This document shows positions 2,005-35,587 of a stretch of 35,995 bases of DNA, piece by piece. Under the pieces are notes generated by a model that worked only from the letters and a program-made list of their open reading frames with translations, was not told where the DNA came from and did no database searches. The stretch covers positions 1 through 35,995 of the forward strand of contig CAOJEC010000009.1 in assembly GCA_948433885.1 (NCBI GenBank). The letters are read 5' to 3'. Every line of letters begins with the position of its first letter. The stretch's first letter is position 1. The position numbers and the translations under genes were made by a program. Source of the DNA: an uncultured bacterium (lineage in GTDB: Bacteria > Bacillota_I > Bacilli_A > RF39 > UBA660).

Positions 2005-2036
2005 AGGTTTAGCAAGGTAAGTTAGGAGGATATGTG

Positions 2037-2342
2037 ATGCAAGAGAACATGATCGCGATCGATGCTAAAGCTTTCGACGAATTGATAATGAGTTTTTACA
2101 AAGTCAAAGAAGAACTGAATGCGACATTGGGATCAATAGATTCTCTAGTTGATGTACTAGAGTCCGACTATGAAAGCGATTCTAGTGCTGTGCTCATCGC
2201 CAATTATAGATCCTTTATGAAGGCCAACAAACCTGTCGTTTTAGACAATATGGAAACTTTCATATCGGATTTGAAAGCCGCGAGAGCAAATGTAGATGCA
2301 TTCGATCGAAGTTTATCTATGCGAATATATGAAAACAAGTAG
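2037..2342 (+). CDS. WXG100-like small helical protein (no WXG motif)
   Basis: A protein of 101 residues, acidic and predicted to be almost entirely helical, with a shape like the ESAT-6/WXG100 hairpin. It lacks the Trp-x-Gly turn. I chose ATG 2037 because it lies 6 nt behind AGGAGGA; GTG 2034 is the alternative. It is the first gene of a three-gene operon, followed 32 nt later by a true WXG protein. It could be a secreted partner of that protein in a heterodimer, or a chaperone-like factor for type VII substrates. Both are inferred from size, helicity and context. Confidence 0.7.
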   Translation: MQENMIAIDAKAFDELIMSFYKVKEELNATLGSIDSLVDVLESDYESDSSAVLIANYRSFMKANKPVVLDNMETFISDLKAARANVDAFDRSLSMRIYENK

Positions 2343-2374
2343 ACTATTATAGTCGGGGAGAGGATGGAAAAATT

Positions 2375-2683
2375 ATGGATTTTTCAAAAGCAACAATTGG
2401 TGTAAATACCGGTACAGTAGACCAATACTTAGAAAAAATTAAGGACAATGTTATCGATGAAGCGATCAGTACTTTGGAAAGAGAACAAGCAGCATTATTC
2501 GAAGCATTTAGAGCAAATTGGGTAGGACAATCGGAGGTCAACTTCGAGAATAATATGGCAAATGCGACTGAGGAAGTTAAAAAGAATCTTGCGTTACATT
2601 ATCATACTTTGAGAGAAAAAGTTTATGCGATAAACAATGCTTGGATTCAACAAGATGCCGGCATGGTAGATAGGAGAGGTTAA
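2375..2683 (+). CDS. WXG100 family type VII secretion substrate
   Basis: A protein of 102 residues with Trp49-Val-Gly between two predicted helices, the classic WXG100 layout (family length about 100). WXG100 proteins are exported as helical-hairpin dimers by the EssC/YukB ATPase. After the WXG turn come a run of charged helix residues and a C-terminal tail that contains an aromatic (HYHTLREKVY). The likely ribosome site is GGGGAGAGGA upstream (about 2354-2363). The gene sits between two other short helical proteins with almost no spacing, so the three are probably made together. Confidence 0.85.
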   Translation: MDFSKATIGVNTGTVDQYLEKIKDNVIDEAISTLEREQAALFEAFRANWVGQSEVNFENNMANATEEVKKNLALHYHTLREKVYAINNAWIQQDAGMVDRRG

Positions 2684-2685
2684 CG

Positions 2686-3186
2686 ATGGCAAGTTTAAAT
2701 GAAATCAAAGCAGCAGAATTGACTGCAAATGCAAGTGTAGAATCACGTACTAATGATACTAAAGGCGTATTGGACGGATTGGAAACTAATGGGGGAGCTT
2801 CTTTACAAAGAGCACAAATAGGTGGAGGCTTGTTCGGATTAGGCGCAAGCAATATGGATTTCATCGGAATCAACGCTGCAGGACTAGATGATATGTGTGC
2901 TGCTATAGACAGTTATTGTGTTGCAGTAACTAACAAATTGGGCGAATTCGATGCTCAAGCGAATACCGAAGGACACTTTGCAGGACAATATGCAGAATCT
3001 ATGAGAGAGTTCATGATGTCGATCAAATCTTCTTGTATTGCACAAGTGGAGGCGCTTAAAAACTTCAAACTCGATCTACAAGCAGTCGTAACGACTATGC
3101 AAGCAAAAGATACGGCAGTTGCTGGTGGAATCAATGCCGAAGCAAATTCTATTTCTTCTGCAAGTGGAATAAACAACAGCAATTAA
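2686..3186 (+). CDS. Small Ala/Asn-rich helical protein of the WXG100 operon, possible type VII substrate
   Basis: A protein of 166 residues that begins 2 nt after the preceding stop. It is helical at both ends, with a glycine-rich segment in the middle (near residues 40-62, RAQIGGGLFGLGASN) and a serine/asparagine-rich C terminus. No WXG motif, signal peptide or membrane segment is visible. Four cysteines are spread through the second half. The length and helical second half (residues 60-140) resemble a WXG100 hairpin with an N-terminal extension. Being a secreted substrate is an inference from the operon. Confidence 0.7.
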   Translation: MASLNEIKAAELTANASVESRTNDTKGVLDGLETNGGASLQRAQIGGGLFGLGASNMDFIGINAAGLDDMCAAIDSYCVAVTNKLGEFDAQANTEGHFAGQYAESMREFMMSIKSSCIAQVEALKNFKLDLQAVVTTMQAKDTAVAGGINAEANSISSASGINNSN

Positions 3187-3215
3187 AAACGAGGACGCAA
3201 GTCCTTTTTATTTTG
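3186..3215 (+). terminator. Intrinsic terminator of the first WXG100-like operon
   Basis: The stem AGGAC (3192-3196) / GTCCT (3201-3205) has a GCAA tetraloop. It is preceded by an A run and followed by a T-rich tract. Confidence 0.75.
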
Positions 3216-3245
3216 TAAATGTGCTGTAAAATTTTTAAGCATTCA

Positions 3246-3274
3246 TTTACAAGGTTTTATTAAATTGTTATCAT
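3246..3274 (+). promoter_or_regulatory. Promoter of the second small-protein operon
   Basis: TTTACA (3246-3251) and TATCAT (3269-3274) are separated by 17 nt. The next gene starts at 3297. Confidence 0.6.
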
Positions 3275-3296
3275 TAAAATAGAAAGAAGTGACAAT

Positions 3297-3623
3297 ATGA
3301 CATCCGATGAATTGGCAAGATTGAAACAAAAGTATTTGTCTTTTAAAGAAAGTTTAGAAAATATGCTTACCATATGCAGTCGAGCAATCGAGGAAATCGA
3401 TGGGACGGGAACTCTTTTGAATGATGGGTATTCTATAGATGGCGAACCTATTGATGATGGGTACATTCATAAGTCCGAATCGACAATGGAATTGGCAAGA
3501 GAATCATTTAGAAAGACGATCGGAATGGTCGTCGATAAGATAAATTCTTTAGATAAAGAAATAGAGATCGCTCGTGATAAAGAACTTGCCGAATTGATCG
3601 CAGCAAGAGGAGGGGCAGAATGA
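3297..3623 (+). CDS. Hypothetical coiled-coil protein, YwqH/DUF5082-like in context
   Basis: A protein of 108 residues with two predicted helices (about 3-36 and 60-105) joined by a Gly/Asp-rich loop. No signal peptide is seen. The charged, heptad-like pattern and the position at the head of an operon before a WXG protein resemble the small DUF5082/YwqH proteins that precede LXG or WXG genes in Bacillus. I cannot confirm the family from sequence alone. The stop overlaps the next start by 4 nt (ATGA), so translation is probably coupled. Confidence 0.65.
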   Translation: MTSDELARLKQKYLSFKESLENMLTICSRAIEEIDGTGTLLNDGYSIDGEPIDDGYIHKSESTMELARESFRKTIGMVVDKINSLDKEIEIARDKELAELIAARGGAE

Positions 3624-3910
3624 AAATAAAATGTGATATCGAGAAATCGAAGTCAACTATAAAAGATATCGATTTGAATATCGAGAGATACAAAGAAATA
3701 GTCGATAATTTTTACGATATCGTCGAATCTTTCAATGCACATGGCTGGTTAGGTAAATCTGCTTATGATTATGCAAATTATTTGGGGAAGAAAAAGAGAG
3801 ATTTCGATGTCATGTATGTCACTTTAAAGGAATTTGTCAAGACTGCTCAAAAGAATGTTTACGAATTGGAAAATACAGTGAAAGCATCGAAGGTGAGTGG
3901 AAATGAGTAA
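3620..3910 (+). CDS. WXG100-like protein
   Basis: A protein of 96 residues with Trp43-Leu-Gly between two predicted helices, matching the WXG100 layout. The second helix continues through a YANYLGKKKRDFD segment. It overlaps the upstream gene by 4 nt and the downstream gene by 8 nt, so the three are translationally coupled. It is probably a type VII secretion substrate or partner. It differs clearly from the WXG protein at 2375-2683, so this is not a recent duplication. Confidence 0.8.
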   Translation: MKIKCDIEKSKSTIKDIDLNIERYKEIVDNFYDIVESFNAHGWLGKSAYDYANYLGKKKRDFDVMYVTLKEFVKTAQKNVYELENTVKASKVSGNE

Positions 3911-4220
3911 AATTGTTTTCGATAGTAACATCATTTCCGAAGAATTGAATCCGAAGTTGACAAAGACGTTAGATGAGTTGAAAAAAGCCATCGATGTCAG
4001 CAAAAGAATCGCTGTTCCTTCGGGATTCGATGCCGCTGAGTATAGAAGTGCTCTAGATAAATTGAATAAAACTTTCATAGGTCTATCCAATGTCAAAGAC
4101 GATTTGCTGAAAGCCGTAAGTAACTTCGAAACTTCTGATATTCAAGCATTAAAAAATTCACGTGAAATAGATTTCGACGTGAGACTGGAATTAGTAGATG
4201 CGGTCATAGATCACGATTGA
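3903..4220 (+). CDS. Small helical protein of the WXG operon
   Basis: A protein of about 105 residues. ATG 3903 is preferred over the in-frame GTG 3897 because AAGGTGAG at 3890-3897 then lies at a usual distance. The protein is helical and acidic, with no Trp, no Cys and no signal peptide. It is the last gene before a strong terminator. The function is unknown; a partner of the WXG protein is possible. Confidence 0.65.
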   Translation: MSKIVFDSNIISEELNPKLTKTLDELKKAIDVSKRIAVPSGFDAAEYRSALDKLNKTFIGLSNVKDDLLKAVSNFETSDIQALKNSREIDFDVRLELVDAVIDHD

Positions 4221-4226
4221 ACCACC

Positions 4227-4253
4227 AAAAAAGCCAAAATTATGGCTTTTTTT
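4227..4253 (+). terminator. Bidirectional terminator between convergent operons
   Basis: A perfect 10-bp stem AAAAAAGCCA (4227-4236) / TGGCTTTTTT (4243-4252) encloses a 6-nt loop, with T runs on both strands. It separates the WXG operon from yukD on the minus strand, whose stop codon touches it. Confidence 0.85.
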
Positions 4254-4504
4254 CATACGAGAATCAACGAGCTTCCACTTTTGATGTCGGTATTGGCTAT
4301 CAGATCGTTCGCCGCATAGTTTTTGGCCGAGTAACGATTATATAAAACCATCGAATTGGGAAGTTTGTATTCTTCGTCTATTTCCACGAGAGCCTTGTTG
4401 ATGAGCATTATGACGTTTCCGACTCTCTTGTTGATAGGAATGTACAAATCTAGCGATTTGTCTATCGCAGGTATGTATATTTCTACGAGTATCTTATCAT
4501 CCAT
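4253..4504 (-). CDS. YukD/EsaB-like ubiquitin-fold protein of type VII secretion
   Basis: About 83 residues with an alternating strand-helix pattern (VEIYIPAIDKSLDLYIP, then a helix, then VLYNR, then SGSSLILV) that fits the ubiquitin-like YukD/EsaB family (about 80 residues). EsaB is a cytosolic regulatory part of the Firmicute type VII system. It directly follows essC, with its ATG one nucleotide after the essC stop. I prefer ATG 4504 because GGAGG then lies 9 nt upstream; an in-frame ATG at 4513 would put the ribosome site almost on the start codon. Confidence 0.8.
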   Translation of the reverse strand: MDDKILVEIYIPAIDKSLDLYIPINKRVGNVIMLINKALVEIDEEYKLPNSMVLYNRYSAKNYAANDLIANTDIKSGSSLILV

Positions 4505-4505
4505 A

Positions 4506-7500
4506 TCATTCATCCTCCGTCGTTATTACTTTTCTTAAAACATGATTTTGTCCATCTATCGAAGTCGAGAAGGCCACGTCGGCAATGTTTATTCTCTTTT
4601 GATCATTAGACAATTTGTTAAATGAGATGGCGATTTGGGTACCAACTCCCGTGCCGAGCCATATACCATTTTTCGAATCTATAGATTTCGAATACCACGA
4701 TTCTATTTGAAGCATTTTGTACGATTCATAATCATCGGCAAAGATGAAGAAAGCATTAGGAAGTCTATCTACATAAGTGAAAATCGAGTTGTATAGAGCA
4801 ACCGTGTCGCGGTTCAGTTTGCCTTTGAGTTTTCCTATACCGGTGATGATGTAGACATTGTAAATGTTTTCGATAGGGTGAGTCACATCCGTGTACATTC
4901 TACTGAATACGCCGTCGAAATCTCGATTGTAAAGTTCTACTAGGTTCAATTTGTCGAATTCTACATAGTTTTCGACATCGATTATCTGCAATTTTACGTT
5001 GCCTAGACTTTTTATTTCTTCGATGAGTGCATAGATGAAATTCATTTGTGATCTCAAATTGGCTGCAAGAATAGGGGTTATTTTGGTCTTCGAGAAGTCG
5101 AAAATGAGTTCGTCTTTCGTATCTATGTCGTAACCTATTACGAGAGTACTGAGCGATTTGACACTTTCTAAAACCATCTTCAAAGAGACAATTTTCGGCA
5201 AGACAGGTACATTCGGTGCTCTAGTTGTAAACCGTGCGGATAGAAGTTCGCCAACTTTCTTGATGGTTGCATTTACATTGTTCTTTTCACTGATGAAAGC
5301 AGTTTGGAATTCTAGCACTTCCCCTGAAAATGGGATCAGTCCACGACCTAAGCTCGTACTAGGTGTTAAACCGCGAGGTGCATCTAAGATGTTTCTATAC
5401 TGTTCTTTGTCGGCCAACTGTAGGCAAATCTTGTTTTCGAAATATTCCTGTATTTTGTATCGCATCGTCCCGGCATTGGTAGTCAAGATGAATTCTACGC
5501 CGTACTTTGGTCCATCGCGGAAGATGGTATTTAAGGCATCGGCAATTTTGGCAAAATTTTCTTGGAATACGTCGTAATAGTTGATGATGAAAATTAGAAG
5601 TGGCAACTTTTCGTTCGATGATTCGATGTAGGTTTTGTAGTCACCCGAATAATCGGCAAAGAGATCTTTTCTTCTAGTAATTTCGTTTTCGCCGATCATC
5701 AGCATGTTCAAAATCTTGTCTCCATCTTCGATCGTACATACATCTCCGACTTGAGGAAATTTGTTGAATATGCGTAGGGATTCTGCTCCCATATCTATGA
5801 GATAAAAGTTCACTTCTTCGGGTGTATGTTCGATACAAGTAGAGAATATGATTGTCTTCAGTATTTCGTCTAGACCACTCGTGTTAGTTCCTTGAATGAG
5901 TGTATTTTTAGATAGAAGATCTAATTTTAAAAGTCCTTGAGCTTGAATGGATGGTCTATCGTATTCTCCGATGATCGGTGTGATCACATACGGCACAGTC
6001 GCGGATGCGTCTTCATACTTTTCTTTGAGAGTAGAAAGGAGTATTTCTTCGGGTAATTTATCTAGCCAAAGTTTATGGTTTTTCAATTTCATCTTGATGG
6101 CTATTTCGGTCAAATATTTGACACAGTTTGTGAGTTGATCTCCTCTTTCGATCGTACGAATACTGTTAGCAGTATCGTTTACTGTCTTGTAACTCATCGC
6201 CGTATTGTCGATGAATTCGATCGAGTCATCGTGATACTTTATTAATCTATCGTTCGGTATGTATTTTGCACCCGACCAACCGGATTGTCCTATTTCGAAC
6301 ATTTCGTCATAGCCGACTTGTAAATAGAATCTACCTGTCTCTTTGAGAGAGGCAGCTTCCGGTCTTTTGAGCATTTCCATACTGTCGCCGCGTGTGGCAA
6401 CTTTCAAACATATTTTGAATTTGGAGTTAGACCATATTTGATCATTGACGACACCACTAGGTTTTTGAGTTGCCAAGATGAGGTGTACTCCTAGACTTCG
6501 TCCGATGCGCGAGATACTTATCAAGTTTGCCATGAAATCGGGTTGTTGACTTTTGAGTTCGGCAAACTCGTCAGATACGATGAAAAGGTGAGATATAGGT
6601 TTAGTGAGTATTCCTTCTCGATAGTATTTTTGATATTTGTATATATCGATGGTACTTTCTCCCGTGATGGTTTTAGCTTCGTTGAAAGCGTGTTCTCTTC
6701 TTTTGAGTTCACTTGTAATCGAAACTACGGCACGATTCATGTCGCTCGTATCCAAATCGGTTAGAATTCCTGCAATGTGAGGCACCTTTATACCAGATGC
6801 TTCATTCATGAATGCTCCAGCAAGGCCTCCACCTTTGTAGTCGATCAAGATGAACTGTACTTCATCGGGGTGATAGTTTATACACATCGATAGAACGAAG
6901 GTGATGATGAATTCTGATTTCCCTGAACCAGTAGCACCGGCGATCAGTCCATGTGGACCATGGAACTTTTCATGTAGATCCAAATAGAATGTTTCTCCAT
7001 CTGTATGAACTCCTATAGGAGCCTGCAAACTAGTGACAGGATTGTTGTTTTTCCAATTGTTTATGATGTTAAGTTGTTCTATTTTCGATACTTTGAACAT
7101 TTCTAAGAAACTGATGCTTTGTGGTAAGTACGTCTTGAAGTCGGTGCTCAAAACGGGTATCTTCATGAGATGTGTACCTATTTTGCGCATATCTATGGAA
7201 GTGTCGTATTCGGGGGTGAACATTTGTTGATTGTTGAGGGTCTTTCTTATGATCGCACCTCGTTGGTTGTCGATCGAAATTATCGTCTCACATTGACGAG
7301 GTAGTCTTTGCATAGATTTGTCTAGAATGACGAACGAAAAGCCGACATTTGTTCCCGAGTTGATGATGTCGTTCACCACTTGAGTATCTCGTATGTTCAT
7401 GTAATTGTCACAAAGAATCAAATAATATGTATTATAAAACTTGTAATCTTTAACTTTCTCAGGTCCTTCGGCCATCTTCATTCCCGACGTACGTTCATCG

Positions 7501-9068
7501 TATATCTTTTTGAGATGAGATAAAATGTTCTTTGCTTCCGAGACGTTCTCGGCGAAGAAACGCATGTCTTTGTCGTTCGAGAAAGAGTGGGGCAAATATT
7601 TCAAATAGTTGTACTTTATGGCATCGTTTTTATTGAAGAGACTGACAATCTTCAAGTCGTTCGGGCTGTGATGAGTTACCAATTCGAGAATGAGTCCCGA
7701 GAGAAAATCGGTCATGATGTCACAAGAAGAGATGATGGCCGAGACGAGACTATCGGTCAGCCTATAAGTGATAGGAACATCGTTCAAAATTCTCGCTTCG
7801 TTGACTATTTCGTATACTTTACTTTTCAACACATCATCGACGAGACTGAAATGTTCTTCAGGAGCATTCAATTTCAAATTACTTTGGATGTTTCCTAAGC
7901 CGAGTCGTATTTCGAGGAAGTCATCGTCTTTTATGCCGACACTCCATATATTTTGAGTACCGGTAGATGCAAAGGTATAGCAATCTTGAACACTTATTTT
8001 GGACGACCTCAAAATTTGAGTTTGATTTTCTAAAATGTTCTTTATCTCTTCTTCTTTTTTGAGTAAGTAAGCATTGTATTTTTCGATTCTAAGACGTTCT
8101 TTTTCTTGGCTCTTTTGTTTATTATATTTTCTAGTCAAATTTGGAAATATGAGACTTCCTGTGATCATGGCAAAGCTCGTGAGCAAAGTCGTGATGACCG
8201 TGAACAAGTTTGAAGAACCACTTGCGATGTTGTTTAGAAGATTGAGAATCGAGACAGCTGAGAAGGCGAGCATCGTGAAACTCGTACCGAAGGTGAGAAT
8301 CCAAGGCAGTTCTTCTTTTATTTGACTTTCCGGTGGTGGATCGATGTTGACTACTTTTTCATCCAAAGTTTGAACGAGGCGAGGTTTGTGGAAGAAGTAG
8401 GCGTCTTGTGAGATGGGGATATCGGAGTCTTTATCCACAGGATCGTACTTGCTGTTGTCGATATTTGTACTGTCTTTAAAAATCGAAAAGGCATTGCCGA
8501 GCGTAACTATATCTACAGGATTGTTTATTTCGATGAAAGTTCCTAGCCAAATGATCACTACACCGTAGATGAAGATGGAATCACCGACTTTGAGGTTGAC
8601 CGTTTTGACGCGTTTATCATTCACATAGACGTAGAGGGATTCATCTTCGACGAGCAATTTTGCTTCGTTGCCTGTTCGTTCTATTGTGATAGTTTTGTTT
8701 TCGAGAAATTCGACATCTATAGATATGGAGTTACTTTTAGCTCTACCTATGGTGATCTTATTTTCTACTATGGTCATTTTTTGGAATGTAGCATCGAGAG
8801 TAGGCATGCAAAACATCAGGTAATCTGCTGTAGTATTCGCGACTTGTAGATGGTAGTAATCGTAATTTCTCAATTCTATCTTGGCTAGTACATTAGCCGC
8901 GTCGGCAATGTTGATACTTCCGTTGCTCTTCGCTATCCAATGTTCGTTTTCGGCTTCTATACTCAAATATTTTTTCTCATCTCCAGGCGAGAAAATATAA
9001 GCACCACTTACGACACTTGGCAAGAATAGCTTAGTTACTTTATCTTCATCTAAAATCAAAACTCTCAT
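4506..9068 (-). CDS. essC: Type VIIb secretion ATPase EssC/YukB
   Basis: A protein of 1520 residues; EssC of S. aureus and YukBA of B. subtilis are about 1480-1495. The order is that of EssC: an N-terminal FHA-like region (about 95-175, with KITIGRAKSN), two membrane helices (about 255-280 and 288-310), then tandem FtsK/SpoIIIE ATPase domains. The first has an intact Walker A GATGSGKS (711-718) and Walker B ILIDYKGGG (740-748). The second has GTNTSGLDE (about 1060-1068) in place of Walker A, so it lacks GK[ST]. The third is also degenerate. EssC powers export of WXG100 and LXG proteins across the membrane. EssA, EssB and EsaA are not nearby. The gene is co-transcribed with yukD from a promoter at 9135-9107. 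Confidence 0.95.
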   Translation of the reverse strand: MRVLILDEDKVTKLFLPSVVSGAYIFSPGDEKKYLSIEAENEHWIAKSNGSINIADAANVLAKIELRNYDYYHLQVANTTADYLMFCMPTLDATFQKMTIVENKITIGRAKSNSISIDVEFLENKTITIERTGNEAKLLVEDESLYVYVNDKRVKTVNLKVGDSIFIYGVVIIWLGTFIEINNPVDIVTLGNAFSIFKDSTNIDNSKYDPVDKDSDIPISQDAYFFHKPRLVQTLDEKVVNIDPPPESQIKEELPWILTFGTSFTMLAFSAVSILNLLNNIASGSSNLFTVITTLLTSFAMITGSLIFPNLTRKYNKQKSQEKERLRIEKYNAYLLKKEEEIKNILENQTQILRSSKISVQDCYTFASTGTQNIWSVGIKDDDFLEIRLGLGNIQSNLKLNAPEEHFSLVDDVLKSKVYEIVNEARILNDVPITYRLTDSLVSAIISSCDIMTDFLSGLILELVTHHSPNDLKIVSLFNKNDAIKYNYLKYLPHSFSNDKDMRFFAENVSEAKNILSHLKKIYDERTSGMKMAEGPEKVKDYKFYNTYYLILCDNYMNIRDTQVVNDIINSGTNVGFSFVILDKSMQRLPRQCETIISIDNQRGAIIRKTLNNQQMFTPEYDTSIDMRKIGTHLMKIPVLSTDFKTYLPQSISFLEMFKVSKIEQLNIINNWKNNNPVTSLQAPIGVHTDGETFYLDLHEKFHGPHGLIAGATGSGKSEFIITFVLSMCINYHPDEVQFILIDYKGGGLAGAFMNEASGIKVPHIAGILTDLDTSDMNRAVVSITSELKRREHAFNEAKTITGESTIDIYKYQKYYREGILTKPISHLFIVSDEFAELKSQQPDFMANLISISRIGRSLGVHLILATQKPSGVVNDQIWSNSKFKICLKVATRGDSMEMLKRPEAASLKETGRFYLQVGYDEMFEIGQSGWSGAKYIPNDRLIKYHDDSIEFIDNTAMSYKTVNDTANSIRTIERGDQLTNCVKYLTEIAIKMKLKNHKLWLDKLPEEILLSTLKEKYEDASATVPYVITPIIGEYDRPSIQAQGLLKLDLLSKNTLIQGTNTSGLDEILKTIIFSTCIEHTPEEVNFYLIDMGAESLRIFNKFPQVGDVCTIEDGDKILNMLMIGENEITRRKDLFADYSGDYKTYIESSNEKLPLLIFIINYYDVFQENFAKIADALNTIFRDGPKYGVEFILTTNAGTMRYKIQEYFENKICLQLADKEQYRNILDAPRGLTPSTSLGRGLIPFSGEVLEFQTAFISEKNNVNATIKKVGELLSARFTTRAPNVPVLPKIVSLKMVLESVKSLSTLVIGYDIDTKDELIFDFSKTKITPILAANLRSQMNFIYALIEEIKSLGNVKLQIIDVENYVEFDKLNLVELYNRDFDGVFSRMYTDVTHPIENIYNVYIITGIGKLKGKLNRDTVALYNSIFTYVDRLPNAFFIFADDYESYKMLQIESWYSKSIDSKNGIWLGTGVGTQIAISFNKLSNDQKRINIADVAFSTSIDGQNHVLRKVITTEDE

Positions 9069-16773: not shown

Positions 16774-16802
16774 TTGTTTATACAAAACTAGTGTAGTATA
16801 AT
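16774..16802 (+). promoter_or_regulatory. Promoter of surface-protein gene A
   Basis: TTGTTT (16774-16779) and a consensus TATAAT (16797-16802) are separated by 17 nt. There is no homopolymer in this spacer, unlike the promoter of the paralogue at 34121-34152. Confidence 0.6.
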
Positions 16803-16881: not shown

Positions 16882-18180
16882 ATGAACAGTAAGAAAATGT
16901 CGAGAATTTTGTTGATGATGAGTATCATGATAAATGTCACTCTCGTGATAGGAATAAATTTGAGTAAAAGTCCAAAAGATGATGAGAAGCCTATCACATC
17001 GGAAGCGATTGCTATGTACGTCGAAGGTGAAAACGGTGAGTACAGTCAAAGCAATGAGAAAACTTTTCCAAAAGAAGGGTACATCTTGAACGTAGAGAAG
17101 AGCACTTGTAGAAATGGTGGATCGTTAACACAAGATGCGAGTACTAAGGCTATAAGTTTGAGTGTAGGAAATGCTGAATCGTGTACATTGTATTTTGATA
17201 AAGAAGTTCTTGGTGGAATAGATTCAATAATAGCTTCATCAAAAGGAACTAGAACAAATTTTGATGATCCAGCAACAACTGATGAAGGCGTGTTCGAGAT
17301 GGAGGATGATTATGGTACAAGTTACTACTATCGAGGAGCAGTGACAAATAACTATGTGAAGTTTGCAGGATACTATTGGAGAATCATCAGGGTCAATGGA
17401 GACGGAAGTTTGAGAATAATATATGATGGAACACAAGCATATGCGAATGGAACAAGTAGTACAGGAAGGTTCATCAAGACAGGACAAGCATACAACTCAA
17501 GTTACAATGATACAAAATATGTAGGATGGATGTATGGTCCTGTAGGGACCACGGCTAGTACAAGCAAGACACAAGCTCAGACAAATACAGTAGACTCAGA
17601 AATTAAAGAAGTAGTAGATGCATGGTATAAAACTAACATAGAAGACGCAGGATATGGAAATGCAGTGTCCGACACATTGTTTTGTAATGATAGAAGTACA
17701 CCAGGAAAAGAGGCAACTGGATGGAATGATGATACAGGGCTAGGCTATGGTACTCAAAAGACGGCGTATGGAGCATATGCTAGAATGAAAGGAGCAATTA
17801 GTGACTATACAGGAGCAACCCCAACATTCAAATGTCCAGAGAGGAATGACGCATTTACAGTGAAAGACACGAGAAAAGGAAATGGAGCATTGACATACCC
17901 AATAGGGTTAATAACCGCGGATGAAATAGTAGCTGCAGGATCAGGAAAAATGTATACATTAAACGAAAATTATTATTTAGATCGAGGCTTATATTATTGG
18001 ACTCTCTCGCCTTTCACTTTCCAAAGTGTTGCTACTATATTCAATGTGGATACTAATGGGAGACTTCTCGATAACTATATGGCATACGGTGGTGCCGTTG
18101 CGCCGGTTATCAACCTAAGTGCAAACTACGTGAAAACCTTAAGAGGTACAGGTACTATGACGAATCCATATCAAGCTTAA
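16882..18180 (+). CDS. Membrane-anchored surface protein A with FGE/DUF6273-like C-terminal domain
   Basis: A protein of 432 residues. A signal anchor (about residues 7-27) is followed by a module with two cysteines (about 44-108; MYVEGENGEYSQS to CTLYFDK) that is almost identical in the paralogue at 34274-35587. The large C-terminal part contains FAGYYWRIIRVNGDGSLRIIY, then GLITADEIVAAGSGK, a divergent segment with YYWTLSP, and GGAVAPVINLSA near the end. This order (W-x-L/R-SP, variable stretch, G-V-x-P-V/A-I-N/L) is typical of the DUF6273/formylglycine-generating-enzyme-like fold used for displayed binding faces. Catalysis is not indicated. It is probably held on the outer membrane face. 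Its place between sigE and sigG is unusual. Confidence 0.8.
   Translation: MNSKKMSRILLMMSIMINVTLVIGINLSKSPKDDEKPITSEAIAMYVEGENGEYSQSNEKTFPKEGYILNVEKSTCRNGGSLTQDASTKAISLSVGNAESCTLYFDKEVLGGIDSIIASSKGTRTNFDDPATTDEGVFEMEDDYGTSYYYRGAVTNNYVKFAGYYWRIIRVNGDGSLRIIYDGTQAYANGTSSTGRFIKTGQAYNSSYNDTKYVGWMYGPVGTTASTSKTQAQTNTVDSEIKEVVDAWYKTNIEDAGYGNAVSDTLFCNDRSTPGKEATGWNDDTGLGYGTQKTAYGAYARMKGAISDYTGATPTFKCPERNDAFTVKDTRKGNGALTYPIGLITADEIVAAGSGKMYTLNENYYLDRGLYYWTLSPFTFQSVATIFNVDTNGRLLDNYMAYGGAVAPVINLSANYVKTLRGTGTMTNPYQA
17014..17205 (+). repeat. N-terminal module shared with the paralogue (copy A)
   Basis: About 190 bp that match 34403-34594 with only scattered, mostly third-position changes. The first 38 bases are identical. 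The upstream anchors of the two genes are unrelated. Confidence 0.85.
17950..18090 (+). other. Divergent C-terminal cassette of surface protein A
   Basis: Between the conserved GLITADEIVAAGSGK and GGAVAPVINLSA codons, the two paralogues differ at most residues and by small indels. Codons here are rich in T/C endings and CTC/TTC/TCG, while the flanks use A-ending codons (ACA, GGA, GCA). Confidence 0.6.
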
Positions 18181-29291: not shown

Positions 29292-29297
29292 CGGTTT

Positions 29298-29508
29298 AAT
29301 ACGTCGAAGAAATCTAAGTAATGAGAAGTTTGAAAGCGAAGAGATTTAGTGGTAGGTGCGAACTAAAGTGACGAATTCTCATGAATCTAATTTCTGAGTG
29401 CATTTAATAGATGCCGGATGACTTCCGTTAGAGAGTTTATAAGTTAAAAATTAGGATGGCACCGCGAGTAAGTTCGCTCCTTCAGGGGAGTACATACTCG
29501 CGGTTTTT
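29298..29508 (+). ncRNA. T-box riboswitch (serine) upstream of serS
   Basis: Stem I shows AGTA on the 5' side of the specifier loop and GAA-UCU-A on the 3' side, giving the serine codon UCU at 29386-29388. The T-box core ATGGCACCGCGAG lies at 29455-29467. Its UGGC pairs with a 3' end GCCA, which fits the G discriminator of tRNA-Ser. The terminator is CCGCGAGTA (29462-29470) with TACTCGCGG (29495-29503), then five T. Uncharged tRNA-Ser would favour the antiterminator and serS expression. Confidence 0.93.
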
Positions 29509-32638: not shown

Positions 32639-34072
32639 TCAATATTGTTTACCAAAATAGATTTTGCATTTTGCTTCTTTTCCACAAACTGCACATTTTC
32701 CATCCGGTTCGTTGCCTTCGAATGGGATACATCTAGATTTGAGTCCAAGCTCATCTTTTATTTTATTTTCACAAGCAACATCTTCACACCAATTGATCTT
32801 TATGAATCCAGGTTTACTCGCGGCGATGTCTTTCATCTCTTCGTAGGTGTATGCATCGTAGAGCATAGTATTTCGACGTGCTAGAGCTCTTTCGTACATG
32901 TCATTTTGGATAGTCGTCAAAAGATCTTCGATCTTTTTAGGAGCTTCATCTAATGATACTTGCATCTTTTCTAGAGTGTCTCTTCGTACGAGAGTGATGT
33001 GTCCGGCTTCCAAATCGCGAGGACCGATTTCGACGCGAATAGGGTAACCTTTGACTTCAGCTTCGGCAAATTTGAATCCCGGTGTTTTATCTGTTCTATC
33101 GACTTTGTTCGAAATTTCCATTTCATCTAACTTTGTCGTAATGTTAGTGATAGCATCTTCGACGATGTCGGAGTCTTTTCCTATAGGTATGATGATGACT
33201 TCGATAGGAGCAATGCGCGGAGGTAAGACGAGTCCTGCATCGTCACTGTGAGTCATGATGAGCGAACCGATCATACGAGTAGTTACTCCCCAAGATGTTT
33301 GGTATGGTGTTTCGAGTTTGTTTTCTTTATTTAAGAATTCGATTCCGAAAGCTTTGGCAAAGTTGTTACCGAAGTAATGGCTCGTACCATTTTGAAGAGC
33401 GACACCGTCGTACATCATCGCTTCGATGGTGTAAGTTTTCTCGGCTCCTGCAAACTTCTCTTTGTCTGTTTTAGTTCCTGTGATGACAGGTAGAGCTAAG
33501 TAGTCTCTTTGGAAGTTTTCGTAAACTTCGAGCATTCTCTTAGTTTCCTCTAGTGCTTCTTCACTGGTCGCATGCATCGTGTGACCTTCTTGCCACAATA
33601 TTTCTCTACTTCTCAAAAATGGGCGAGTAGTCTTTTCCCAACGTACGATCGTACACCATTGATTGTATAGTTTTGGAAGATCTCGATAACTCTTTATGAT
33701 CTTTTTGTAGTGTTCACAAAAGAGTACTTCGCTAGTCGGACGAACACAGACTCTTTCTTCTAGTTTGTCTTTTCCACCTTCAGTGACCCAGGCTACTTCA
33801 GGTGCAAAACCTTCCACGTGGTCTTTTTCTATATTCAAAAGACTTTCTGGAATGAACATCGGCATTTGAACATTTTCGTGTCCTAAACGTTTGAATTCTT
33901 TATCCAATACTGCGACCATACGTTCCCAAATGGCATACCCATAGGGTCTTATGATCATGCTACCTTTCATGCTCGAATAGTCGACGAGATCAGCTTTTTT
34001 TACTATGCTCGTATACCACTCGGCGAAATCTGTATCTCTACTGACGATACTTTTATTTTGAATTTCGGCCAT
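32639..34072 (-). CDS. proS: Prolyl-tRNA synthetase, archaeal/eukaryotic-like type
   Basis: A protein of 477 residues. It lacks the editing insertion of the long bacterial form, and its start (DFAEWYTSIVKKADLVDYS) and blocks MIIRPYGYAIWE, RPTSEVLF, RSREILWQEGHTMHAT and TSHYFGNNFAKAFGIEF match the short type 3 enzyme. The C-terminal domain has cysteines (WCEDVACENKI and CAVCGKEAKC) of the zinc-binding end and finishes in KIYFGKQY, the usual terminal Tyr. It charges tRNA-Pro. The ribosome site GAAAGGAAG lies upstream of ATG 34072. Its promoter overlaps that of surface gene B. Confidence 0.96.
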   Translation of the reverse strand: MAEIQNKSIVSRDTDFAEWYTSIVKKADLVDYSSMKGSMIIRPYGYAIWERMVAVLDKEFKRLGHENVQMPMFIPESLLNIEKDHVEGFAPEVAWVTEGGKDKLEERVCVRPTSEVLFCEHYKKIIKSYRDLPKLYNQWCTIVRWEKTTRPFLRSREILWQEGHTMHATSEEALEETKRMLEVYENFQRDYLALPVITGTKTDKEKFAGAEKTYTIEAMMYDGVALQNGTSHYFGNNFAKAFGIEFLNKENKLETPYQTSWGVTTRMIGSLIMTHSDDAGLVLPPRIAPIEVIIIPIGKDSDIVEDAITNITTKLDEMEISNKVDRTDKTPGFKFAEAEVKGYPIRVEIGPRDLEAGHITLVRRDTLEKMQVSLDEAPKKIEDLLTTIQNDMYERALARRNTMLYDAYTYEEMKDIAASKPGFIKINWCEDVACENKIKDELGLKSRCIPFEGNEPDGKCAVCGKEAKCKIYFGKQY

Positions 34073-34098: not shown

Positions 34099-34127
34099 AT
34101 TAAACCACATTTTTTAGGTCTTGACAA
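34099..34127 (-). promoter_or_regulatory. Promoter of proS
   Basis: On the minus strand TTGTCA (34127-34122) and TTTAAT (34104-34099) are separated by 17 nt. The -35 box shares five bases with the -35 box of the divergent promoter. Confidence 0.65.
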
Positions 34128-34152
34128 GTTGGTTCGGGGGGGGGGGTATAAT
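34121..34152 (+). promoter_or_regulatory. Putative phase-variable promoter of surface-protein gene B
   Basis: Consensus TTGACA (34121-34126) and TATAAT (34147-34152) are separated by 20 nt. The spacer includes 11 consecutive G (34136-34146). The optimum spacing is 17, which would need 8 G, so slippage on the G run should switch promoter strength. At 11 G the promoter is expected to be weak. The leader 34153-34273 follows; it contains a tiny frame MFSKKENIAMSTK (34182-34223). Confidence 0.75.
34136..34146 (+). repeat. Poly-G tract of 11
   Basis: This is the longest G run in the window, in a low-GC background where such runs are not expected by chance. It lies wholly between the -35 and -10 boxes. 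Confidence 0.95.
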
Positions 34153-34273
34153 CTCAAGTAGATGATATAGTAGACGGAGAAATGTTCAGTAAAAAAGAGA
34201 ATATTGCGATGTCTACAAAATGAAAAAATAGGGTGAAAGCGCCAGTCTTTAATGTGCTAGAAAAGAGGAGTTT

Positions 34274-35587
34274 ATGAAAAAGAAAGTTTTGTTAGTAGTT
34301 TCAGGGTTAGTTTTAATTCCATTGATGAGTTTATGGTTATGTAGTTTCGAAGATGAAGAAGCTAATAAAAAAACCAAAACCGGTGAAGAAAGTAAGATTG
34401 CAATGTACGTCGAAGGTGAAAACGGTGAGTACAGTCAAAGTAATGAGAAAACTTTTCCAAAAGAAGGATACATCTTAAACGTAGAGAAGAGCACTTGTAG
34501 AAATGGTGGTTCTTTGACACAAGACGCGAGCACAAAGGCGATAAGTTTGAGTGTAGGAAATGCTGAATCGTGTACGTTGTATTTCGACAAAGAGGAAATA
34601 CCATCAAGTGACAGTACATTGGCAACACTCGGGATAACATCGCAAGGAACAAAGAGTGGGTTCGACGATCCAGCAACAACAGCAGAAGGAGTCTTCGAGA
34701 TGGAAGATGACTATGGGACAAGTTATTACTATCGAGGAGCAGTAACAAACAACTATGTCAAATTCGCAGGCTTCTATTGGAGAATAATCCGAGTCAATGG
34801 AGATGGATCACTCCGAATCATATATGATGGAACACAGGCACATGCGAATGGAGCAAACAGTTCAAACAGATTCATCAAGACAGGACAAGCGTACAATAGT
34901 AGTTATAATGACAACAAATATGTAGGATGGATGTATGGACCGTCAGGGACAACGGCAAGTACAAGCAAGGCACAGGCTCAGACGAACACAGCCGATTCAA
35001 CAATCAAGGAAGTAGTAGATGCATGGTACAAGACGAATATAGCAGATAAAGGATATGGAAGCGCAGTATCGGATACACTGTTTTGTAATGATAGGAGCAC
35101 ACCAGGAAAGGCAGAAACAGGATGGTTTGAGGACACAGGATTAGGTTATGGAAGTAATTATACAGCCTATGGAGCATTCGCGAGAATGAGAGCATGTTTC
35201 GGCGGATATACAGGAGCAACTCCAACTTTCAGATGTGCACAAAAGAATGATGCATTTACAGTGAATGACACGAGTAAAGGAAACGGAGCACTAACATATC
35301 CAGTAGGACTAATAACCGCGGATGAAATAGTAGCCGCAGGGTCGGGTAAGTATGATACCTATAACCAAAGTTATTATTTATATCGTCCTGGATATTGGTA
35401 CTGGTCGCTCTCGCCTAGCAATTTCTACGGTACGTATTCTAGTGTATTCACTGTGAATCCTTCCGGTCAGTTCTACCGTAACTATGTGTACACCGGTGGT
35501 GCCGTCGCGCCAGTTATAAACTTAAGTGCAGAATACGTGAAAACCTTGAGAGGAACAGGAACAACGAGTGATCCATACCAAACTTAG
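34274..35587 (+). CDS. Membrane-anchored surface protein B with FGE/DUF6273-like C-terminal domain
   Basis: A protein of 437 residues, paralogue of the gene at 16882-18180. The N-terminal hydrophobic anchor (about 4-24, ending LWLC) differs in sequence from that of copy A and is not a standard lipobox. The two-cysteine module (about 44-107) and most of the framework (for example FAGFYWRIIRVNGDGSLRIIY and GLITADEIVAAGSGK) are nearly identical. The C-terminal segment between YWYWSLSP and GGAVAPVINLSA is divergent. Codons in the framework are strongly A- or G-ending. The domain probably displays a binding face outside the cell. Expression is likely controlled by the poly-G promoter. The ribosome site AGAGGAG lies just before ATG 34274. 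Confidence 0.82.
   Translation: MKKKVLLVVSGLVLIPLMSLWLCSFEDEEANKKTKTGEESKIAMYVEGENGEYSQSNEKTFPKEGYILNVEKSTCRNGGSLTQDASTKAISLSVGNAESCTLYFDKEEIPSSDSTLATLGITSQGTKSGFDDPATTAEGVFEMEDDYGTSYYYRGAVTNNYVKFAGFYWRIIRVNGDGSLRIIYDGTQAHANGANSSNRFIKTGQAYNSSYNDNKYVGWMYGPSGTTASTSKAQAQTNTADSTIKEVVDAWYKTNIADKGYGSAVSDTLFCNDRSTPGKAETGWFEDTGLGYGSNYTAYGAFARMRACFGGYTGATPTFRCAQKNDAFTVNDTSKGNGALTYPVGLITADEIVAAGSGKYDTYNQSYYLYRPGYWYWSLSPSNFYGTYSSVFTVNPSGQFYRNYVYTGGAVAPVINLSAEYVKTLRGTGTTSDPYQT
34403..34594 (+). repeat. N-terminal module shared with the paralogue (copy B)
   Basis: About 190 bp that match 17014-17205 almost exactly. This is a possible site for homologous recombination between the two loci, which lie in direct orientation about 17.4 kb apart. 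Confidence 0.85.
35350..35496 (+). other. Divergent C-terminal cassette of surface protein B
   Basis: The codons are mostly NNT/NNC (TAC, TTC, GGT, ACC, CGT), in contrast to the A-ending flanks. It is bounded by the conserved GTAGCCGCAGGGTCGGGTAA on the left and GGTGGTGCCGTCGCGCC on the right. Confidence 0.6.

Follow-up and report, generated by a model that had tools for sequence, protein, structure and literature searches.

A poly-G tract in the promoter of a retroelement-targeted surface protein gene: a probable slippage switch in uncultured Bacilli

Can a run of 11 consecutive G residues, placed between the -35 and -10 boxes of a promoter, decide how much of a surface protein a cell makes? 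Poly-G promoter switches are textbook knowledge in Neisseria and are known in Treponema, at one or a few loci and in pathogens. Here, the question is raised by a locus in a 35,995-nt stretch of DNA (the window, by which we mean the whole stretch that was analysed) from an uncultured, probably gut-dwelling bacterium (Bacillota_I; Bacilli_A; RF39; UBA660), the genome of which comprises 1.406 Mb in 62 contigs.

The promoter of gene B and its surroundings

A first-pass annotation, made from the letters of the window, had described TTGACA and TATAAT boxes separated by 20 nt, including 11 consecutive G, 5' of a gene for a membrane-anchored protein (gene B). Read again from the sequence, this anatomy is exact. 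The features of the locus, and of a second gene of the same family (gene A), are as follows:

32639..34072, minus strand: prolyl-tRNA synthetase-like ORF, the divergent neighbour (named by inspection)
34099..34127, minus strand: possible divergent proS promoter (TTGTCA at 34127-34122, 17 nt, TTTAAT at 34104-34099; predicted from sequence)
34121..34126, plus strand: -35 box TTGACA of gene B (sequence; TTGACA in 7 of 7 intact copies in the same genome)
34127..34135, plus strand: AGTTGGTTC, the nonrepeat part of the spacer (sequence)
34136..34146, plus strand: G11 homopolymer, the proposed slippage switch (sequence, run counts)
34147..34152, plus strand: -10 box TATAAT (sequence)
34153..34273, plus strand: 5' leader of 121 nt, resembling the leaders of poly-G paralogues in the same genome
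34274..35587, plus strand: gene B, 437 aa, surface-type, with an N-terminal hydrophobic anchor (ORF and sequence)
16774..16802, plus strand: promoter of gene A, TTGTTT-17 nt-TATAAT, without a homopolymer (sequence)
16882..18180, plus strand: gene A, a paralogue 74% identical to gene B (ORF and comparison)

The standard promoter scan was limited to spacers of 16-18 nt and missed the promoter of gene B. The G11 run is the sole such run in the window, where dinucleotide shuffling gives an expectation of 0.07 for G8. A chance origin of the run is ruled out by this expectation and by the genome-wide and family-wide counts given below. The possible proS promoter overlaps the palindromic CTTGACAAG, and the G-run lies outside. 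Across poly-G paralogues, the leader of ~120 nt (34153-34273; L009-L015) is conserved and has possible pairing arms; an Rfam search of the gene B leader gave no real match. No Pfam or NCBIfam family matched the gene B product, and a search of viral contigs recovered no relative of it.

Gene A was confirmed to have a 17-nt spacer and no homopolymer (16774-16802). The first-pass view of one constant and one switchable copy is sound in so far as gene A is ordinary; however, it understates the family, because 33 stretches of the genome match gene B and seven intact poly-G promoters are present. Paralogues of gene B stand under poly-G promoters on contigs C3, C9, C18, and C19. The poly-G promoter on C4 precedes a protein whose N-terminus is related, and those on C13 and C49 reach contig ends. 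The paralogues without a poly-G tract (L057, L061, L064-L067, L070-L072) have a different promoter in common, which includes the palindrome TTATACAAAACATATTTTGTATAAT; thus, poly-G control is restricted to a subset of the family. The palindrome suggests that a repressor may be common to these nonswitching paralogues. Residues 42-107 are the same in genes A and B and the flanks have diverged (window 34274-34600 versus 16882-17200), a pattern suggestive of gene conversion among the two paralogues. In G003, a third species of the genus, another type of repeat lies upstream of a gene-B homologue (L363), where the 17-nt unit AAGGTCCGGATAAACAC occurs four times in tandem within the leader.

Poly-G promoters across the genome and the family

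The genome has 11 runs of at least 7 G, seven of which are preceded by TTGACA and directly followed by TATAAT; the reversed control pattern gave none. These seven promoters have 10 or 11 G, with spacers of 19 nt in five cases and 20 nt in two (gene B among the latter). At an eighth site, on contig C45 (L116:8662-8680), TTGACA and G10 are present and the -10 box is missing. A cytosine-5 methyltransferase-like ORF follows this site, and perhaps a mobile element was inserted at the G-run.

The arrangement, initially presented as unfamiliar for gut Bacilli, is not unique to this bacterium. The same design (GGGGGGGTATAAT) occurs in 49 of 386 family genomes, from 32 of 150 genera, versus two sites overall for the reversed control. 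Copies per genome number 76 in G189, 34 in G163, 31 in G338, and 29 in G091, and many of the family relatives are gut MAGs. This is an undercount, because promoters in the sister species G006 read G-run-TGG-TATAAT and G-run-TGT-TACAAT. In G162, the matches listed include 39 further promoters with a pure G-run and an altered -10 box (TATTAT, TATACT, TATCAT), which brings that genome to at least 54 poly-G promoters. In G189 (a 1.3-Mb genome), genes of ~1 kb stand in tandem with one poly-G promoter each (contigs C3, C7, C8, C10, C13, C17, and C19 of that genome). In a wider sample, the pattern was found in 18 of 392, and in a scan with one genome per species the matches listed include Clostridia, Saccharibacteria, Streptobacillus, Helicobacter, Blautia, and others. 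Two IMG/VR contigs (L239 and L240) each carry a TTGACA-poly-G-TATAAT promoter.

The genes at these promoters are of a restricted kind. An N-terminal TM or signal segment is present in 123 of 130 ORFs, and the classes seen include type IV pilin-like, sortase-motif, InlB-repeat, BspA-LRR, and tail-collar. Among 51 of the 130, the Pfam names include N_methyl pilin motifs, InlB repeats, BspA LRR, DUF285, tail-collar and lectin-like domains, and two ABC ATPases. The products are predicted to be, almost always, secreted or surface proteins.

Spacer length

Among 151 poly-G promoters from 38 genomes, with ties in the assignment resolved towards 18 nt, 92 have a spacer of 19 nt, 127 have one of 18-20 nt, and just one has a spacer of 17 nt; a second count, based on exact hexamers and free of any tie rule, again showed the trough at 17 nt. 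When all collected sequence was considered with a relaxed -35, there were 22, 11, 53, 124, and 25 poly-G promoters with spacers of 16, 17, 18, 19, and 20 nt, respectively. Spacers of 17 nt thus make up 11 of 270, whereas this length is the commonest among ordinary promoters of that DNA (98 of 214; range 15-20 nt). For 17 nt versus the rest, Fisher's test gives p 9e-28, a value that is too small given related sites within genomes. A cross-phylum set shows the trough as well (3 of 86 at 17 nt), with modes at 15-16 and 18-19 nt. The non-G part of the spacer varies among genera and the total still comes to ~19 nt; the number of G and the length of the non-G part compensate for each other (Spearman -0.46).

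These counts bear on the initial idea that loss of three G would bring gene B to a 17-nt optimum, which was an assumption: 92 of the 151 spacers are at 19 nt and a single one is at 17 nt. Given the family mode of 19 nt, the nearest family-typical state for gene B is one G lost.

Evidence for slippage

The G number differs by one between copies with identical 50-nt flanks in G267 (12 and 11), G338 (9 and 8), and G326 (9 and 8). Different lengths also occur in the sister species G006, where near-identical copies have 10 versus 12 G (TTGACAACTCTC-G10 versus G12-TGTTACAAT). Of the one-mismatch sites listed, the 39 from G162 all retain an uninterrupted G-run and have their change in the -10 box; the one interrupted run listed is from elsewhere.

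The other classical slippage switch is an intragenic homopolymer that changes the reading frame. Four relatives of gene B in G006 (L367, L373, L387, and L362) have intragenic tracts of C9, C10, C10, and C11 just past the N-terminal TM, and in all four the start/TM and the body are in different frames. Judged by these frames, the G006 poly-C tracts are a predicted translational slippage switch within the gene B family.

With recurrence at surface genes, pure G-runs, and lengths that differ by 1-2, the slippage-switched promoter of a surface protein proposed at the outset appears very probable, and we consider slippage-driven phase variation of the gene B promoter to be the best explanation, and a likely one. 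Counter to free slippage, when copies from one genome with 1-3 substitutions in their flanks were paired, only ~7% of the pairs had unequal G numbers. Because the total is held at ~19 nt and the spread is below that of free slippage, selection or slow slippage must act. Also on the other side of the balance, contigs frequently break near poly-G promoters. In short-read assemblies, homopolymer length may be off by one.

Alternative explanations and the ON state

The G-tract could instead belong to a fixed architecture, as a structural or binding element with a 19-nt optimum (imposed, e.g., by a regulator or by stiffer G-tract DNA) and no switch. Such an element would fit the sharp 19-nt peak across 38 genomes, the way in which G number and non-G length offset each other, and the equal G number in most near-identical pairs. 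However, the spacer has no dyad operator (a MerR-type 19-nt promoter was also considered, and the spacer contains no dyad), and pure runs of 7-18 G are kept over many genera despite changing flanks and -10 boxes, although a binding site needs no pure homopolymer. A fixed element is also at odds with identical-flank copies that differ in G number, with the poly-C frame switches that members of this gene family carry in the sister species, and with use that is nearly confined to surface genes, and we regard it as unlikely. Far less probable still is that the G-runs are assembly or sequencing artefacts (e.g., from two-colour chemistry). G-runs are difficult to sequence and contig ends are frequent near poly-G promoters, but the runs have unique flanks on both sides and a constant position relative to the -35 and -10 boxes, and they recur across separate projects, in 49 genomes of the family and in many other phyla, with a reversed control near zero. 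An assembly artefact was rejected on this recurrence, the fixed placement, and the near-zero control.

If the promoters do switch by slippage, there is still the matter of which length is ON. In N. meningitidis porA, 11G is the high state, with 10G 2-fold and 9G 13-fold lower (PMC3639595); because the longest of these three tracts is the high one, 18-19 nt could be ON here. In this polarity, which is compatible with slippage, a change in G would lower the output and most copies would be ON, consistent with the mode of 19 nt and the conserved spacing. We consider it possible but doubtful, given that 17 nt is the commonest spacer of ordinary promoters in these genomes and that the frame-switched G006 relatives are OFF in 4 of 4 cases. 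Output of the Treponema pallidum tp0126 poly-G promoter is also best at 17 nt (PMC7864442), by which the majority of the poly-G promoters described here would be weak or OFF. Our preferred reading of the spacer lengths is that, at 18-20 nt, most copies give little or no expression and that loss of one or two G would raise it.

Gene B as a target of a diversity-generating retroelement

Absent from the first-pass account is a retroelement variable region (VR) in gene B, paired with a template repeat (TR). The features concerned are listed here, with those on contig C35 numbered within that contig:

35402..35511, plus strand: VR of gene B (12 of its 14 mismatches to the C35 template lie at template adenines)
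35494..35511, plus strand: G+C-rich 3' end of the VR, IMH-like by presumed role (18 nt identical to the template)
C35:9668-10819: reverse transcriptase (RT), PF00078, with FMDD motif (profile match and catalytic xxDD motif)
C35:4659-4768 and C35:6685-6794: two identical TR copies (same positions in L111)

The differences between VR and TR fall on template adenines in 12 of 14 cases for gene B (p 9e-7) and in 16 of 16 for the paralogue on C17 (p 1e-11), and all 14 changes in the gene B VR are in codon positions 1 and 2. The TR translates to WSLSPNNFNGSNSNVFNVNTSGQLNNNNVNNGGAVA, which is Asn-rich, the pattern expected for a TR. On this sequence evidence, it is close to certain that gene B is a retroelement target. 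A C-type lectin fold around the VR was sought without a Pfam or PDB match, and an AlphaFold run on gene B from two sequences only gave a pLDDT of 29.

The genome has two reverse transcriptases. The C35 RT shares its locus with the two TR copies, a paralogue of gene B, and ORFs for an Avd-like protein and a MutS domain I. The Avd-like ORF matches PF22296 (1.2e-5) and NF033474 (6e-6), both under the curated cut-offs; a homologue of Avd in G189 is over the Pfam cut-off. At least four TRs are dispersed over the genome (L111:4659-4768, L111:6685-6794, L114:2644-2754, and L115:2690-2799), with a conserved 3' tail common to at least some of them, and are predicted to form a multi-template retroelement. 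A small MutS domain I ORF adjoins Avd and RT in two genera (L111:8948-9292 and L291:4206-4619); it could be the MutS-like accessory gene of retroelement surveys.

In G189, which is from another genus, the retroelement lies inside a poly-G array (TR L291:3750-3855, MutS_I ORF, Avd, and RT), and all 17 mismatches between the TR and the adjoining poly-G gene are at template adenines. In at least two genera, therefore, a poly-G promoter and a predicted retroelement act on, or at least mark, the same genes. Enrichment of retroelements among poly-G genomes as a whole was rejected (19 of 49, versus 13 of 31 other family genomes; p 0.82). Because the retroelement is no commoner overall, we regard the pairing as genuine but facultative, and a functional link between the two layers need not exist. 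Among high-copy poly-G genomes, 8 of 11 have a retroelement versus 11 of 38 (p 0.014, a post hoc comparison). The G006 reverse transcriptase contains a stop, and no TR was found near it. In the open-access literature, we found no paper that describes a retroelement together with phase variation or slippage on one gene.

A two-layer model and its relation to known systems

We propose that the G11 tract would serve as a slipped-strand contingency element in a sigma-A-type promoter. When one or two G are lost or gained as the DNA is replicated, the -35/-10 spacing would shift, and the shift in spacing would alter the level of gene B expression. For a large family of predicted membrane-anchored proteins with hypervariable C-termini, the poly-G promoter (layer 1) would then determine which copies a cell displays, and the retroelement (layer 2; the C35 RT, Avd, and TRs) would rewrite the tip of the displayed protein. 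A broader reading, which we hold tentatively and rate a little short of probable, is that these largely gut-derived Bacilli carry retroelement-written binder libraries that are mostly silenced by poly-G promoters just off 17 nt, with few members shown per cell and single-G changes that reshuffle populations. Such switching, if real, explains how dozens of hypervariable surface binders can be encoded in one genome and yet not all be displayed. As a signature that is simple and quantitative, the deficit of 17-nt spacers could serve to find OFF-biased contingency promoters elsewhere.

In the Mycoplasma hyorhinis vlp gene family, each member has its own tract. To our knowledge, no template-directed mutagenesis is known for Mycoplasma vlp, maa2, or vmm. 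Indels between the -35 and -10 boxes switch these surface lipoprotein genes on and off (M. hyorhinis vlp, M. arthritidis maa2, and M. mycoides vmm; PMC2268961), with repeat and gene families that differ from those described here. As in N. meningitidis porA, which has ~11 G within the spacer of a surface-protein promoter and expression graded by length (PMC3639595), the tract of gene B lies inside the spacer; unlike porA, a single locus in a Gram-negative pathogen, the device here is multi-copy in uncultured Bacilli, has spacers of ~19 nt, and belongs to a gene that is apparently also diversified by a retroelement. The likeness to tp0126 is that its poly-G lies between -35 and -10 and its length sets the spacing, with the 17-nt optimum noted above; it differs in being a single gene, for which the text consulted describes no paralogue array or retroelement (PMC7864442).

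The retroelement resembles those of Bordetella phage Mtd, Treponema TvpA, and a Legionella lipoprotein in its RT, Avd, adenine-specific TR/VR pattern, and C-terminal VR in a displayed protein (definition in PMC4159848). In contrast to these, it has several dispersed TRs and many target paralogues, some with promoters predicted to be switched by slippage. What appears to be new is the scale and the pairing of the promoter switch with a retroelement, the type of switch itself being known: the poly-G device appears as a genome-wide programme in gut Bacilli that do not resemble pathogens, with up to 76 promoters per 1.3-Mb genome and genes often in tandem arrays.

Other features of the window

Small helical WXG100-like ORFs and an EssC-like ATPase of 1520 aa occur at 2034-9068, which is probably a type VII secretion locus (named by inspection). 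At 29295-29484, there is a T-box leader (RF00230, 97 bits), followed by a seryl-tRNA synthetase-like ORF.
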